Source: Candidatus Sulfotelmatobacter sp.
Lineage (GTDB): Bacteria > Acidobacteriota > Terriglobia > Terriglobales > Acidobacteriaceae
NCBI GenBank assembly: GCA_030040965.1
Contig: JASHOT010000154.1
Coordinates: forward strand, 1-35,888
Direction of reading: 5' to 3'
DNA length: 35,888 nt
The stretch's first letter is position 1. The number at the start of each line of letters is the position of its first letter. Below the pieces are notes generated by a model. That model worked only from the letters and a program-made list of their open reading frames with translations. It did no database searches and had not been told where the DNA came from. Positions 597 to 35,888 of this stretch are shown one piece after another. A program made the translations under genes and the position numbers.

Positions 597-2528
597 ATGG
601 CTAACCCCGGCGACTTCGCATACACCGTCAAGCAGCAGGCCGACATCGTCCGCATCATCGGCGACTACATCAAGCTGAAAAAATCCGGCTCGCAGAATTT
701 CTCCGGCCTCTGTCCCTTTCACGGCGAGAAAACTCCATCGTTCTCCGTCCACTCGACGCGCCAGTTTTACCACTGCTTCGGATGCGGCGTCTCCGGCGAC
801 GTCTTCAGCTTCATCCAGAAAATCGAAAACATCACCTTCCCCGAAGCTGTCCGCCTGGTCGCGCAAAAGCTCGGTATCCCGCTTCCCAAGGCTGCCTACG
901 CGACCGAAGGCGAAGCCAAAGAAGCCCGCCTGCGCGGTCAACTCCTCGACATCCACGAGCGCGCCGTCGCCTTCTTTCAGGAATGCCTCCGCCGCCCCGA
1001 AGGCGCCCGCACCCGCGAATATCTTGCCGGTAGAGGCTTAAACGAAGAGATGACTTCGAAGTTCCGCATCGGCTTCGCGCCCGACAGCGGTTTCCTCCTC
1101 CGCGATCGCCTGAAAAACGAATTCAGCGAAGATGTCCTCCGCGAAAGCGGTCTCTTTTCCTGGAAGCAGGACGACTCTCAAGGGGGTGCCCCATTCAAGC
1201 CCGGTTTTGGCTTGAGTGGGGAAGTCGCGGTTGCTCAGCCGACGACCAACGACCATCGACCGACGACGGTTTTCATGTACTCCAAATTCCGCAATCGAGT
1301 AATGTTCCCGATAAGCAGCGACGCGGGCAAAGTCATCGCCTTCACCGGACGCACTCTCTCCACCGACGAAAAAGCCGGGCCCAAATATCTCAACTCGCCC
1401 GAGACCGCGATCTACTCCAAGAGCAAAGTTCTCTTCAACCTCGATCTCGCCAAAGAGTGGATCAAGAAATTCGACTATGCCATCCTTGTCGAAGGCCAGA
1501 TGGATTGCATCTCCGTTTTCGCCGCCGGACTTCACAACGTCATCGCCAGCTCCGGCACGGCCTTCACCGAGCTGCAAGCCAAGCTGCTCGCCCGTTTCAG
1601 CAAAAACGTTGTCGTCAATTTCGATCCTGACACTGCCGGTGCCAAAGCCACCGAGCGCACTCTCGGCCTGCTCGTCGAAGAAGAATTTCAGATCAAGGTC
1701 CTCACCCTCGAGCCCGGATTCGATCCCGACCTCTTCATCCGCCGCAAAGGCAAAGAAGCTTACGAAGACGCGCTCCGTCATTCGCAAAAATATTTCGACT
1801 ACCTCATCGAGCGCGCCCGCTCACAGTTCCCCATTCGCAGCGCCGAAGGAAAAGTCAAGGCGGTGAACTACCTCCTGCCGCACATTCAGCGCATTCCCAG
1901 CCGCATCGTGCGCGACGAACTCGCGAACGAGATCGCGCAAAAACTTTCCATCGACTCCGCCGTGCTGCGCCAGGAACTTCGCCACGCCGCCGGAACCCGC
2001 TCCACTTCCGCCGTCAAAGCGCCGGCCGAAGCCCAGGTCACCGACGCCGAAAAAATTCTCATCCGCGCCCTCGCCTCCACTCGCCAAATGCAATCCGCTG
2101 GAGAACGTGTCTCCGCTCGCGATGGAGCCGACGAAGAATTTGACCCATCGCGGCAAGCACACTACGTCCTGCAAAACGAAAGCCTGCATCACGGCCTCGC
2201 CACCGAGTCGTTGATCGACTCGCTGCTCAACGCCAGCCATGATGTCGACGTGCTCGAAATCCCCGCCAGCGAATCCGACCGTCGCCTGCTCGCCGCGATT
2301 CTCTTCAAGGACGAGGAAGATCTCACCGCCGAAATTGTGGAAGCCGCAGTCCGCGCCCTGCGCCGCATTCGTCTTCGCCGGCGCCAGCAGGAAATTCAGC
2401 AGCAACTCAAGCAGCCCGGCCTCGCCGCCGACCCCGCCCAAAATAAAGACCGCCTGCGCGAGTTGTTGGCCGAACTGGAAGGCATCAGCCGCGCCCTCCG
2501 CGACCCCGCCCTCGCCGGCGTCGCCTAG
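597..2528 (+). CDS. dnaG: DNA primase DnaG
   Basis: Primase that makes RNA primers at the replication fork. The N-terminal CHC2 zinc finger is present (C39, H42, C60, C63 counted from the ATG at 597). The TOPRIM domain carries EGQMD at 299-303 and FDPDTAG from 342, the acidic metal-binding residues. The C-terminal part (after about 430) fits a DnaB-binding region. An upstream in-frame start at 468 adds 43 residues of low-complexity sequence, so the start at 597 (MANPGDFAYTVKQQADIV) is preferred because it matches the family N-terminus. Length is 643 aa, typical. Odd feature: residues of about 194-226 are an in-frame insertion made of a dispersed palindromic repeat, just before the conserved FRNRVMFP segment. 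The gene otherwise looks intact and functional. Confidence 0.96.
   Translation: MANPGDFAYTVKQQADIVRIIGDYIKLKKSGSQNFSGLCPFHGEKTPSFSVHSTRQFYHCFGCGVSGDVFSFIQKIENITFPEAVRLVAQKLGIPLPKAAYATEGEAKEARLRGQLLDIHERAVAFFQECLRRPEGARTREYLAGRGLNEEMTSKFRIGFAPDSGFLLRDRLKNEFSEDVLRESGLFSWKQDDSQGGAPFKPGFGLSGEVAVAQPTTNDHRPTTVFMYSKFRNRVMFPISSDAGKVIAFTGRTLSTDEKAGPKYLNSPETAIYSKSKVLFNLDLAKEWIKKFDYAILVEGQMDCISVFAAGLHNVIASSGTAFTELQAKLLARFSKNVVVNFDPDTAGAKATERTLGLLVEEEFQIKVLTLEPGFDPDLFIRRKGKEAYEDALRHSQKYFDYLIERARSQFPIRSAEGKVKAVNYLLPHIQRIPSRIVRDELANEIAQKLSIDSAVLRQELRHAAGTRSTSAVKAPAEAQVTDAEKILIRALASTRQMQSAGERVSARDGADEEFDPSRQAHYVLQNESLHHGLATESLIDSLLNASHDVDVLEIPASESDRRLLAAILFKDEEDLTAEIVEAAVRALRRIRLRRRQQEIQQQLKQPGLAADPAQNKDRLRELLAELEGISRALRDPALAGVA
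1185..1222. repeat. REP-like palindrome, copy 1 (inside dnaG)
   Basis: One of eight copies of a roughly 38-bp element with GGTGCCCCATTCAAGC at one end and GCTTGAGTGGGG at the other, which pair as a stem around a variable centre. Here it lies in frame in dnaG and is translated as GAPFKPGFGLSGE. It is followed by a second simple repeat (ACGACCAACGACCATCGACC) at about 1241-1260 that is also translated. Confidence 0.9.
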
Positions 2529-2905
2529 CTGCCGTAGCGCCAGCATCTTGCCGGCCGTCGGAGCTGGAGGGTGCCCCATTCAAGCCTTCTTTTGGCTTGA
2601 GTGGGGACTTCGCTTGGCGAAGCTCGACCGCAGTCGCCGGACCCTGCGTTTTCGTTTTGTCATTCCGAACGCGCGCCCAGCGCGGGTGAGGAACCTGCTT
2701 TACCGCTTGTCATCCTGACCCTGAGCTTGTCGAAGGGGAAGGACCTGTGCACTTCCAATGCATGGGAACACGGCCAACACAGTTAACCACGGCGCACTTC
2801 CGAGTTGCTGCGTCATCCTGAGCGAAGCGGTTCTTCAGGCGGAGCGAGGGATCTCGCGCGGAGTGCACAACAACTCAGTCGCAGCCGAGCGATTCATCCA
2901 ACTTC
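2529..2905. repeat. Gene-free interval packed with dispersed repeats
   Basis: No credible gene between dnaG and the convergent nucleoside hydrolase. It holds a copy of the 38-bp REP-like palindrome (copy 2, 2569-2607, same orientation as copy 1). It also holds three versions of a second repeat starting GTCATCCTGA or GTCATTCCGA and ending in GGAACCTG or GGATCTCG-like sequence (about 2658-2700, 2708-2747 and 2812-2860). Such elements usually lie between genes, and this is a convergent junction. Confidence 0.75.
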
Positions 2906-3964
2906 TTACTCCACTCCTCCCACCCGCTTCAAATAAAACACAAAAAAATCATCCGGCTTCGAATCCAGACACACCTCAGCATTAGCCGCGCCCGCTTCCT
3001 CGCGCGTGTATCCTTTTTCGTCCACGCGAATGTGCAGCGGCGTCACCGGACACAGCTCCGGCCGGATCGCAAACCCGACCGCCATCGGATCAAACAGCGT
3101 CGGCGTCTCCTGCCCCCACAGGTGATACAGAATCGTCAGCTGATCCGTAATCGCCGTGCCGCGCGTAAAAAGAAACGCTCGTTTCACTTCATCCAGTTTT
3201 AATTGTGTCGAATCGAGCGGCATCACGTACACCGGCACGCCCGACGCGAACAATTTCTGCGCCGACGCGATGTCGTTCAGTATGTTCCACTCCGGCTGCG
3301 GCGCCACGTGCTCGTTGTAGCCCAGATCGCCATAGCCGCGGCGGATCGATCCGCCCATCATCACCACCCGCTTCAGTTTGCGAAATGTCGCCGCATCCCG
3401 GTCGATCGCCCCGCCTACATTGAATAGAGGCCCAATGCAAATCAGCGTGATCTCGCCCGGATACTTCTGAATCTGCGCGAGCAGAAAATCGACTGCGTCG
3501 GAATGCGAGCGCTTCGCAAAATGGCCGCCGTCGGCATAGCGGCCCTGCGACATCGAAGTCTTCGCCGCCGTCTTCTTGCCCGCAAGCACCGGGATGTCGC
3601 CACGTCCAATCTCTCCCAGAAAACGGTCCACAATGCGGGCGCGCGTCTCGGTATCGCCGAAGGTTGTCTCAATTCCCAGGATCTCCAACTCCCGGCTCTT
3701 GATCGCCAGCGCCAGCGCAAAGGCGTCATCAATGTCGTCGCCAATATCGGTGTCAATGATCACCTTCTCCGGCGCCGATTGTGCAACGCCCGACGCATAG
3801 ACGTGCGCTGGGCGTAGCGGGAGAACCGCTCCCGCAACCCTCCACGGATTCCGATCTTCCTCCACCGTCTGCGCCGCGACGAAGAGCGAAGTGAAGACCA
3901 ACGCGACCGTCAGTGCGAAGACAACATGAAACCCTGAACGGCAAAGGAACCGCGAAGAATGCAT
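2906..3964 (-). CDS. Exported inosine-uridine preferring nucleoside hydrolase
   Basis: IUNH-family hydrolase that cleaves the N-glycosidic bond of nucleosides. The calcium- and ribose-binding aspartate motif is seen as DTDIGDDIDDAFALALA. Further family landmarks are GPLFNVGGAI, VVMMGGS, a PEWNILNDIASAQKLF segment and a late FDPMAV. The chosen start (MHSSRFLCRSGFHVV) gives an N-terminal hydrophobic signal peptide ending near FVAAQ, so the mature enzyme is probably periplasmic. Another in-frame ATG at 4018 adds 18 residues; neither start has a clear ribosome binding site. The gene is convergent with dnaG and divergent from the kinase, so it is transcribed alone. Substrate is not deducible. Confidence 0.88.
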   Translation of the reverse strand: MHSSRFLCRSGFHVVFALTVALVFTSLFVAAQTVEEDRNPWRVAGAVLPLRPAHVYASGVAQSAPEKVIIDTDIGDDIDDAFALALAIKSRELEILGIETTFGDTETRARIVDRFLGEIGRGDIPVLAGKKTAAKTSMSQGRYADGGHFAKRSHSDAVDFLLAQIQKYPGEITLICIGPLFNVGGAIDRDAATFRKLKRVVMMGGSIRRGYGDLGYNEHVAPQPEWNILNDIASAQKLFASGVPVYVMPLDSTQLKLDEVKRAFLFTRGTAITDQLTILYHLWGQETPTLFDPMAVGFAIRPELCPVTPLHIRVDEKGYTREEAGAANAEVCLDSKPDDFFVFYLKRVGGVE

Positions 3965-4271
3965 CAAGTCAACGTCCCACAACGTGTGGCCAGCACCGTG
4001 AATCTCAGTTGTGTTCATGGAGAAACATACTATTTGAAAGCACCTCCAAGCGTAGACACATAACGGCGTGCGGCGGACAAAGCGACATAAGACGGCAGCA
4101 GCGGTCTTAAACGAATCACAAACGGATCACAAGGCGCTTGAGCTCGCGCCCGAACGTTTTGCCCCGCGACGCGGATTTTGAGATGCAACTGCGCTTTGGA
4201 GCGGAGCCTGCCTGCTCTGCCTGCTTCCTCTCATTGACTAGCCCCACTCCCAGTCCTAAGATTTCAGCCCA
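3965..4271. other. Divergent intergenic region
   Basis: About 307 bp between the divergent nucleoside hydrolase and kinase genes. Both promoters should lie here, but I see no convincing -35/-10 pair, repeat or RNA structure. Confidence 0.4.
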
Positions 4272-7429: not shown

Positions 7430-9121
<1,692 letters not shown>

Positions 9122-10018: not shown

Positions 10019-10054
10019 GGACGACGGAAGTCTCTTGCGGATACAGCTGTGAAT

Positions 10055-10092
10055 CCCACCCTTTCGCAAAGAGCGCGAAAGGATGGGGCACC
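10055..10092. repeat. Palindromic repeat, CCCACCCTTTCGC family
   Basis: CCCACCCTTTCGC, a short loop, then GCGAAAGGATGGGGCACC. Same family as copies at about 24327-24367 and 25080-25121. Intergenic, after the PIN toxin. Confidence 0.75.
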
Positions 10093-10116
10093 CCGGCCAT
10101 TGCTAAGGGGAAAGCG

Positions 10117-11259: not shown

Positions 11260-11298
11260 TCCCCACTCAAGCCAAAAGCGAGCTTGAATGGGGCACCC
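11260..11298. repeat. REP-like palindrome, copy 3
   Basis: CCCCACTCAAGCC, variable centre, GCTTGAATGGGGCACC. Intergenic, 36 bp before the nuclease gene start. Confidence 0.9.
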
Positions 11299-16757: not shown

Positions 16758-17304
16758 AGTTTTCTCTGGCGAAGGTGAACTGATTGTTACAGTGCCCGGA
16801 GCGCGGATGCAGCGCTGAAGCGCTCGATGATCCCCCACTCAAGCCAAAAGCGGGCTTGAATGGGGCACCCGGCGCAGCTGAGCGGCGCGCTTTCAAAGAG
16901 GTGCCCCGGCCCGATTGTTGGGTCCGGTTGTGAGGGAGATCCCTCGGCCCGCGGCTTCGCCGCCCCCGGCTAAAGCTGGGGGTCTACCGGAAAACGCGGG
17001 CCTTCGGGATGAAGCCAATCCCAAGCGCAAAGGACGCCAGGGCGGTGAGAGTTGTGGAGTTCCATGCGAAATCGCGGGACCTCAGGGGCTAAAGCCCGAG
17101 TTCTTATGCGGCTCGGATTGGCACGAGTAAACTCGTGCCCTTCCCGTCGTACCGACTGGTTCGTCTTTCAGGAGTCCTGGCGAGGCGCTAAAGCGCCGCG
17201 CGTCTACGCTAGCTTGGGGCGTCGATGCGCGATGCAAAACTCCCCACTCAAGCCAAAGGCGGGCTTGAATGGGGCACCGTCGATTGTCTATACGTTCCGC
17301 GCGA
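16758..17304. repeat. Repeat-dense intergenic region
   Basis: About 550 bp without a gene, made largely of palindromes: two copies of the 38-bp REP element (16831-16870 and 17241-17278), a CCCCCGGCTAAAGCTGGGGG stem (about 16963-16982), GGGGCTAAAGCCC (about 17085-17097), a perfect 9-bp stem GGCACGAGT-AA-ACTCGTGCC (17120-17139) and GGCGCTAAAGCGCC (17184-17197). This is BIME-like (interspersed mosaic) architecture. It separates the zinc-ribbon gene from the DUF481 gene. Confidence 0.8.
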
Positions 17305-20846: not shown

Positions 20847-20932
20847 GGCCCCACTCAAGCCAAAACCGGGCTTCCACCCCGAATCGCGAAAGTCGCGCGG
20901 TCCGGGGACCCCCGGGCTTGAATGGGGCACCG
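20847..20932. repeat. REP-like palindrome, copy 6, interrupted
   Basis: Copy 6 of the REP family, split after CCGGGCTT by about 46 bp, after which GGGCTTGAATGGGGCACC completes the element. The insert carries its own dyad, with CCCCGAATCGCG near one end and CGCGCGGTCCGGGG near the other, and duplicates the 6 bases GGGCTT. Confidence 0.75.
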
Positions 20933-24305: not shown

Positions 24306-24326
24306 CGTTGTTGATCGGATGTGCAA

Positions 24327-24427
24327 TGCCCACCCTCTCGCGAAGAGCGCGAGAAGGGTGGGGCAACCACGTTTTGTGTCACCAGAATCCCCACTCAAGC
24401 CAGAAGCGGGCTTGAATGGGGCACCCG
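24327..24427. repeat. Two adjacent palindromic repeats after ada
   Basis: A CCCACCCTCTCGC / GCGAGAAGGGTGGGGC element (24327-24367) followed by REP-family copy 7 (24388-24427). Both lie between the convergent ada and the next reverse-strand gene. Confidence 0.85.
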
Positions 24428-24885: not shown

Positions 24886-25242
24886 GATTCCTCCTTCATG
24901 CGTTTATTTCGCTTTGGGACAGTCTGAGGGCAGCATAATACCGGGAATAAGAAATGGGCAATCGCTGGAAGTTGACTGATGTGAATCTAGCGCAAGCATT
25001 CCCTGTCTAATTCGCCGTGAACGACGGAAAAAACTTTGCCTGGTTTTAGCGAGCAAAGCTGGGACAGGGGTTTGCGGGAATGCCCACCCTCTCGCAAGGG
25101 ACGCGAGAAGGGTGGGGCAACCGGGTGGGGCAACCGGGTATAGGAACACCTCGATGTGAAATTCGGTCTCGAAATTTCCCACTCAAGCCAAAGGCGGACT
25201 TGAATGTGGCACCCGGCACTGCTCCAGATGTTAACCCCGATC
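24886..25242. repeat. Intergenic interval with two repeats
   Basis: No gene. Contains a CCCACCCTCTCGC family repeat (25080-25121, with the GGGTGGGGCAACC end duplicated in tandem) and REP-family copy 8 (25177-25214), which has diverged in one arm (GAATGTGGC). Confidence 0.75.

Positions 25243-29543: not shown

Positions 29544-29622
<79 letters not shown>

Positions 29623-35235: not shown

Positions 35236-35888
<653 letters not shown>

Follow-up and report, generated by a model that had tools for sequence, protein, structure and literature searches.

The window analysed here, that is, the whole stretch of 35,888 nucleotides, comes from a fragmented assembly (437 contigs) of a soil bacterium, a Candidatus Sulfotelmatobacter sp., placed by NCBI in the Terriglobia of the Acidobacteriota. 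Close to its beginning lies dnaG (positions 597–2528, plus strand), encoding a DNA primase of 643 aa that is matched by the Pfam models for the zinc ribbon, DNAG_N, Toprim, and DnaB_bind; we chose 597 as its start codon (the mechanical open reading frame begins at 468). The primase carries a hypervariable loop of 40 aa between two strands (residues 188–227; positions 1158–1277, plus strand), recognized from its bounds, the lengths found in other bacteria, and an AlphaFold2 model. Most of this loop is coded for by two kinds of repeat, both in frame: a REP-like palindrome (1184–1221, plus strand), translated GGAPFKPGFGLSGE (residues 196–209), and a 7-nt tandem array of the ACGACCA type (1239–1262, plus strand), found in an array scan and lying within the peptide PTTNDHRPTT. 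The initial annotation of this stretch had described an in-frame REP-like palindrome with an ACGACC array inside an essential gene, and the open 643-aa frame bears this out.

The segment is also an insertion of the kind that had been claimed, roughly 30 residues long and ahead of the Toprim part. The interval corresponding to residues 186–228 comprises 41 residues here, whereas 30 distant DnaG proteins (29 from outside the phylum and one, L073, from a distant Acidobacterium) have 8–24 there, with a median of 9. The best DNAG_N stretch in Pfam begins at residue 227, which places the insertion in the N-terminal half of the catalytic core. The predicted structure, a check that the initial annotation had proposed, gives an unstructured and probably disordered loop: in the AlphaFold2 model, pLDDT is below 50 at residues 195–215 against a mean of 87.5 for the protein, with strands at 187–190 and 226–229 on either side, and residues 471–478 and 508–510 are also below 50. 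The alignment to the solved primase 2au3 runs up to residue 188 and resumes at 220, and that to 4e2k runs up to 192 and resumes at 227, so that the loop falls in the gap in both cases. An intein or another insert that is removed from the product was dropped as a candidate on anatomy alone, the segment being short, variable, and without conserved ends.

The palindrome belongs to a dispersed family. It reads GGGTG-CCCCATTCAAGCC-cggtttt-GGCTTGAGTGGGG, and by eye 12 of the 13 positions of its arms are paired. Positions 1150–1300 of the window, used as a query, match 42 places in the source genome including dnaG itself, 3 of them with the ACGACC part alone, and copies identical to the dnaG palindrome over 38–42 nt occur elsewhere in this genome. 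As a pattern allowing up to three mismatches it has 36 copies in the source genome and is present in 37 of 45 genomes of the genus, against none for the reversed pattern in all 45; the dispersal asserted from the window alone is thereby confirmed. An alignment of 35 copies from the source genome gave the consensus cGGGTGCCCCATTCAAGCCCGCtTTTGGCTTGAGTGGGGAtTTtg (in brief, GGGTGCCCC...GGGGATTTTG), outside which conservation drops, and the conserved element is about 38–44 bp long. Among these 35 copies in the fetched stretches, 27 were called intergenic, 3 lie at gene edges, and 5 lie inside genes, according to a crude gene caller based on hexamer scores, in keeping with the earlier statement that REP-like elements are mostly intergenic. 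All five in-gene copies are read in the sense direction and in one shared frame, giving GAP(F/L)KPxxGLSG(D/E); in the window's copy four of the six frames are free of stops, and the frame used by all five is one of these four. Besides dnaG, the carriers in the source genome are genes for an amine oxidase, a squalene/phytoene synthase, an ABC protein, and an FAD-linked oxidase, and a menaquinone decarboxylase gene of genome G008 also holds a copy. In the genus set, seven palindromes were called inside genes; four of these, in weak frames (L279 twice, L282, and L283), were set aside, two of them being in the sense direction in the usual frame and two antisense.

Further copies lie within the window. 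One at 2569–2606 (plus strand) is intergenic and begins 40 nt past the dnaG stop; those on the minus strand at 11261–11298, 16833–16870, 17242–17278, 24389–24426, and 25178–25214 (the last diverged) were all called intergenic, and a partial copy lies at 20849–20873 (minus strand). Another REP-like family, with stems resembling CCCACCCT...AGGGTGGG, occurs at 10051–10094, 24325–24368, and 25079–25122. The source genome encodes a REP-associated tyrosine transposase (NF047646; L310, positions 1462–1983, contig C30), which may conceivably mobilize the palindrome family of dnaG. Downstream of dnaG, Pfam identifies a sigma-70 factor gene at 7430–9118. Toward the far end of the window lies a gene for tRNA-Pro(CGG) (29544–29620), a 55-nt 3′ part of which (29568–29622) recurs 6 kb downstream at 35581–35635 with 96% identity; this duplication resembles the ends of an integrated element, and a helix-turn-helix (HTH) protein and an SNF2-type helicase are encoded between the two copies.

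To place the loop in a wider context, we searched 101 genomes, the source genome included, and found a match to the DnaG protein in 94. We could read the loop in 35 of the 45 genus genomes, again counting the source genome; no match was found in G009, G021, G035, and G039, only fragments or distant matches in G008, G013, G024, G033, and G042, and G044 has Ns. All 35 loops are long (29–84 aa, median 56) and each is different, with varied kinds of repeat. In the family outside the genus we used 12 of 16 genomes (G045 had no match, G050 was not fetched, and G053 and G057 were not parsed); the loops there have 13–61 residues, and only that of G052 reaches the threshold for an array as defined below, although lag-7 identity pooled over all 12 is raised too (0.357).

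The peptide encoded by the 1184–1221 palindrome is found in the window's loop only, the 34 other loops read from the genus being without it. A related palindrome, GGTGCCCC-GTCC...GGAC...GGGGATTT, occurs in the loops of G001, G011, G028, and G031, in one frame throughout. By eye, insertions are nested: the related palindrome of G031 contains a short palindrome, and another interrupts the ACGACC array of G014. Perfect stems of at least 8 are present in 8 of the 35 loops, where codon shuffles lead to an expectation of 2.0. No empty dnaG site lacking the palindrome was found among the genus loops, as alignment fails even between the nearest of them. The initial annotation had considered a recent insertion. 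For the palindrome this looks right, given its absence from the 34 other loops and its identical copies elsewhere in the genome; as a one-off event the idea does not survive, since the long loops recur across the genus and the same holds for the mnmG and nrdJ loops and, for the palindrome, in mutL (see below). An ancient protein segment, which relatives would show as the same residues over divergent DNA, is contradicted by the comparison of their DnaG proteins, where the residues are quite different.

The loops are also rich in tandem repeats of one particular unit length. Scoring as an array any segment with at least 12 of 14 matches at a lag of 7 nt, we found arrays in 28 of the 35 genus loops and in none of 174 dnaG control segments. 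Lag-7 identity over the 35 loops is 0.422, compared with 0.268 for codon shuffles (z = 25.8) and 0.233 for the control segments, and the loop DNA matches itself at 37% of positions at lag 14 and 35% at lag 21. The excess is confined to lag 7: at lags 4–6 and 8–12 none of the 35 loops has an array, and among the 174 controls there is one at lag 4 and one at lag 8. Because 7 cannot be divided by 3, these repeats exist at the level of the DNA, and selection on the protein alone would not produce them.

Arrays were also sought in longer stretches of two genomes. A 400-kb sample of G019, 86% of it coding, has 11 strict arrays, of which 10 are intergenic, 1 is at a gene edge, and none is inside a gene, and at a looser threshold 1 of 20 lies inside a gene; in 468 kb of the source genome (a sample of 40 contigs), 3 of 9 looser arrays (L182, L202, and L205) were called in-gene by the crude caller. 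For 9 of the 40 loop arrays the repeat unit is identical to one from the intergenic sample, where shuffling gives 0.92 on average and 5 at most. The remaining 31 lack an exact counterpart there, 20 of them being one base away from such a unit and 11 neither; it should be noted that the intergenic sample consists of 17 arrays only. The loops hold 40 arrays in 5,634 nt, whereas the intergenic DNA of G019 has 16 in about 56 kb, which makes the loops about 25-fold denser, and the sample of the source genome has 4 arrays in about 73 kb. Because arrays are far denser in the loops than between genes, a landing site that merely resembles intergenic DNA falls short of a full explanation. A direct comparison of the loops with 207 kb of flanking DNA, in which 14 of 47 loops were matched, was discounted: three control sets gave 0/46, 0/47, and 0/47, but a fourth gave 81 hits in 11 of 46, which we think came from incompletely masked dnaG ends.

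The loop sequences are replaced quickly. In the closest pair, G004 and G017, the DnaG cores are 96.7% identical and loop identity is 0.55, compared with 0.52 for codon shuffles, although other close pairs lie somewhat above their shuffles (e.g., G002 and G020 with 0.72 vs. 0.56). When array types, labelled with hand-written peptide patterns, were mapped onto a loop-free tree of the 35 genus tips, the type of the right array required at least 15 changes (200 label shuffles: mean 19.6, minimum 15) and that of the left array 16 (mean 19.9, minimum 16). Changes of array type are thus nearly as frequent as with shuffled labels, which indicates a weak phylogenetic signal: part of the loop is inherited, and replacement is fast.

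The frame in use tends to be the most hydrophilic one. It gives 9.9% hydrophobic residues in the loop; the alternative frames give 17–35%, and the core has 31%. The used frame is more hydrophilic than the five alternatives in 34, 21, 34, 34, and 30 of the 35 loops, respectively. The closest rival is the +2 frame, which is as hydrophilic or more so in 14 of the 35 loops, yet it contains stops in 31 of them. The composition of the loops shows a filter for hydrophilic peptide, a pattern that neutrality combined with purifying selection gives equally.

Loops of this type are not restricted to dnaG. We looked at three further genes, named from Pfam and NCBIfam matches (nrdJ is our own label for a gene with Ribonuc_red_lgC and TSCPD); mnmG was matched in 43, nrdJ in 37, and mutL in 43 of the 45 genus genomes, and the best 30 loci of each were taken, among which 4 of mnmG (anchor missed, although these look alike by eye), 2 of nrdJ, and 4 of mutL were unreadable. 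A loop of mnmG carries an array in 22 of the 26 genus genomes read, compared with 0 of 104 controls, and a linker of nrdJ ahead of the C-terminal cysteine motif carries one in 19 of 28, compared with 1 of 108 controls. In mutL no arrays were found in the 26 genus genomes read where the loop is long enough to be scored, and the palindrome is present in three: G041 (L311), G015 (L312), and G024 (L313). These copies have the opposite orientation to the dnaG copy and are read in another hydrophilic frame, and the three may go back to a single event; the mutL loop has just 7 residues in 10 of the 26 genomes, which makes this a case of presence versus absence, and 10–28 in the other 13. The mutL gene of G030 (L315) has a different proline- and serine-rich insert at that loop, possibly another palindrome. 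An FG-GAP/UnbV_ASPIC protein of the source genome (L177, positions 812–4000, minus strand, contig C108) contains two different in-frame 7-nt arrays about 30 nt apart. Loci of the genus and its near relatives, 1.51 Mb in total, hold 60 strict in-gene arrays, every one of them in dnaG, mnmG, nrdJ, or one FG-GAP/UnbV_ASPIC protein, in a locus set that is itself enriched for dnaG, mnmG, and nrdJ; the mnmG, nrdJ, and UnbV stretches of the source genome were likewise picked for palindrome or array matches and are a nonrandom sample.

Several points are shown directly: which repeats are present and where they lie, that close species differ in them, that the frame in use is biased, that disorder is predicted, and that other enzymes have the same pattern. 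On this basis we regard the segment as translated repeat DNA in a disordered, tolerated loop of the primase, where repeats land or slip and in-frame hydrophilic versions are kept (a probability of roughly 80%). Dispersed REP-like palindromes would insert into the hairpin loop, and short 7-nt arrays would either arise within it, presumably by slippage, or reach it from elsewhere. Most insertions would be lost through a broken frame or fold, the survivors being those of frame-keeping length that, on the strand and in the frame read, encode a hydrophilic and flexible peptide, presumably nearly neutral for enzyme function. Further insertion, slippage, and replacement would then rewrite the loop into species-specific versions.

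That every one of the 35 genus genomes read has a long loop, that one pair shows turnover with cores 3% apart, and that arrays are about 25 times as dense as in the intergenic DNA of G019 would also fit a functional loop under diversifying selection, in which surface variation of the primase, MutL, MnmG, and RNR is favored, for instance for escape from phage proteins or for tuning of fidelity, and repeats supply the variants. Replication and repair genes do recur among the carriers, as Di Nocera and co-workers noted for their own elements together with speculation about a mutator role (in the portions of PMC3733652 used here). We nonetheless consider such selection improbable: the filter for hydrophilic peptide is given just as well by neutrality with purifying selection, and the other palindrome carriers of the source genome, from the amine oxidase to the FAD-linked oxidase, have no obvious common function. 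Arrays formed purely in place by slippage from a hydrophilic linker, with no dispersed elements moving in, would agree with the 31 of 40 loop units that lack an exact intergenic match and with a published survey, as summarized in the portions of PMC4679880 used here, according to which 7 nt is the most abundant tandem unit length in most genomes. For the palindrome this is refuted, as 36 genomic copies cannot come from slippage, and for the arrays the exact sharing of 9 of 40 units against 0.92 expected speaks against it; as an account of the whole loop we hold it to be very improbable. Hardly credible at all is an ancient protein with repeat-like DNA by chance, or an assembly artefact: the 437 contigs of the source assembly are a point in favor of the latter, but 35 assemblies have long in-frame loops of differing sequence, and the lag-7 signal is missing from the control segments.

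The reading of translated repeat DNA in a tolerated loop may be carried one step further: Sulfotelmatobacter would maintain a few repeat-fed hypervariable loops in enzymes of replication, repair, and tRNA modification, where arrays and palindromes accumulate far above background and change from one close species to the next, driven by a local mutational hot spot or by selection for change. We see this extension as doubtful; were it true, selfish genomic repeats would be raw material for varying essential enzymes. A unit length that is not a multiple of three is an expected frameshift hazard in an essential gene, yet 28 of the 35 primases read from the genus carry such arrays. The genus offers many natural replicates of repeat DNA turning into protein at a fixed site, which makes it testable whether selfish repeats feed protein evolution. 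On the practical side, alignments and profile matches in these genomes may break at such loops.

Palindromic elements of Rickettsia (RPE) were reportedly described by Ogata et al. in 2000 and 2002. In the portions of the literature considered here, RPEs are 105–146 bp long (PMC2229807) and occupy in-frame positions in 19 reading frames of Rickettsia, and an RPE-bearing guanylate kinase, when tested, kept its activity with a changed substrate affinity (PMC2229807, PMC10969869). The palindrome of the window resembles them in being dispersed palindromic DNA that lies in frame in conserved genes with a conserved encoded peptide and also occurs between genes (compare the same portions of PMC10969869, PMC2229807, and PMC3733652). 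The five in-gene copies of the source genome share one frame, as expected of a constant peptide, and the mutL copies use another frame and strand. It differs in its host, an Acidobacterium, and in its length of about 38–44 bp, the likeness being one of description rather than of compared RPE sequences; it also adjoins 7-nt arrays, at a gene site that is built from repeats in most genus genomes read. The palindrome works like an RPE but is not classed as one.

A second parallel is provided by the GTAG/CGTC REPs, which Di Nocera et al. (2013) found inside open reading frames of several species, many of them DNA synthesis or repair genes; in the portions of that paper used here (PMC3733652), in-gene copies are proposed to be neutral if they lie in flexible linkers or loops, a mutator role is speculated on, the same recB site holds a REP in two Xanthomonas species, and RPE-4 and RPE-6 correspond to short repeats treated there. 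The shared features are short palindromes within open reading frames, including those of DNA synthesis and repair genes, whereas by eye the consensus here (cGGGTGCCCC...GGGGAtTTtg) has neither GTAG nor CGTC as an end tetranucleotide. The terms dnaG, primase, and mutL are absent from the main text of PMC3733652, and its portions considered here report neither 7-nt arrays nor species-by-species turnover. By the general description of REPs as short (14–40 nt in Escherichia coli), palindromic, highly similar, repeated, and seldom overlapping protein-coding regions (PMC12306157, in part), our element qualifies: it is 38 bp long, its arms pair by eye at 12 of 13 positions, the source genome has 36 copies of it, and only 5 of 35 copies lie in genes and 3 at edges according to the crude caller.

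Heptamer tandem repeats are likewise known, with TAACTGA in Beggiatoaceae (PMC4679880) and GGGAATC in Xanthomonas and GGGGA(C/T)T in Nostoc (PMC4692102); the portions of these two papers considered here describe them as mainly intergenic, the G-rich ones being under-represented in coding regions. The arrays of the genus share the dispersed, over-represented 7-nt tandem units, with an excess over neighboring unit lengths at lag 7 alone, but unlike those heptamers they lie within conserved enzymes, so that a mainly intergenic location does not hold for dnaG, mnmG, and nrdJ. In the listed titles and abstract openings of the open-licence PMC literature we found no report of repeats in acidobacterial dnaG, and in the same literature no earlier case of a single site at which 7-nt arrays turn over. 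Repeats inside genes are thus known from other bacteria, and what is unusual here is the presence of 7-base repeats at one site throughout a genus. The case extends a known kind by a palindrome family of its own, by 7-nt arrays in essential enzymes, and by the recurrent rebuilding of one site across the genus.
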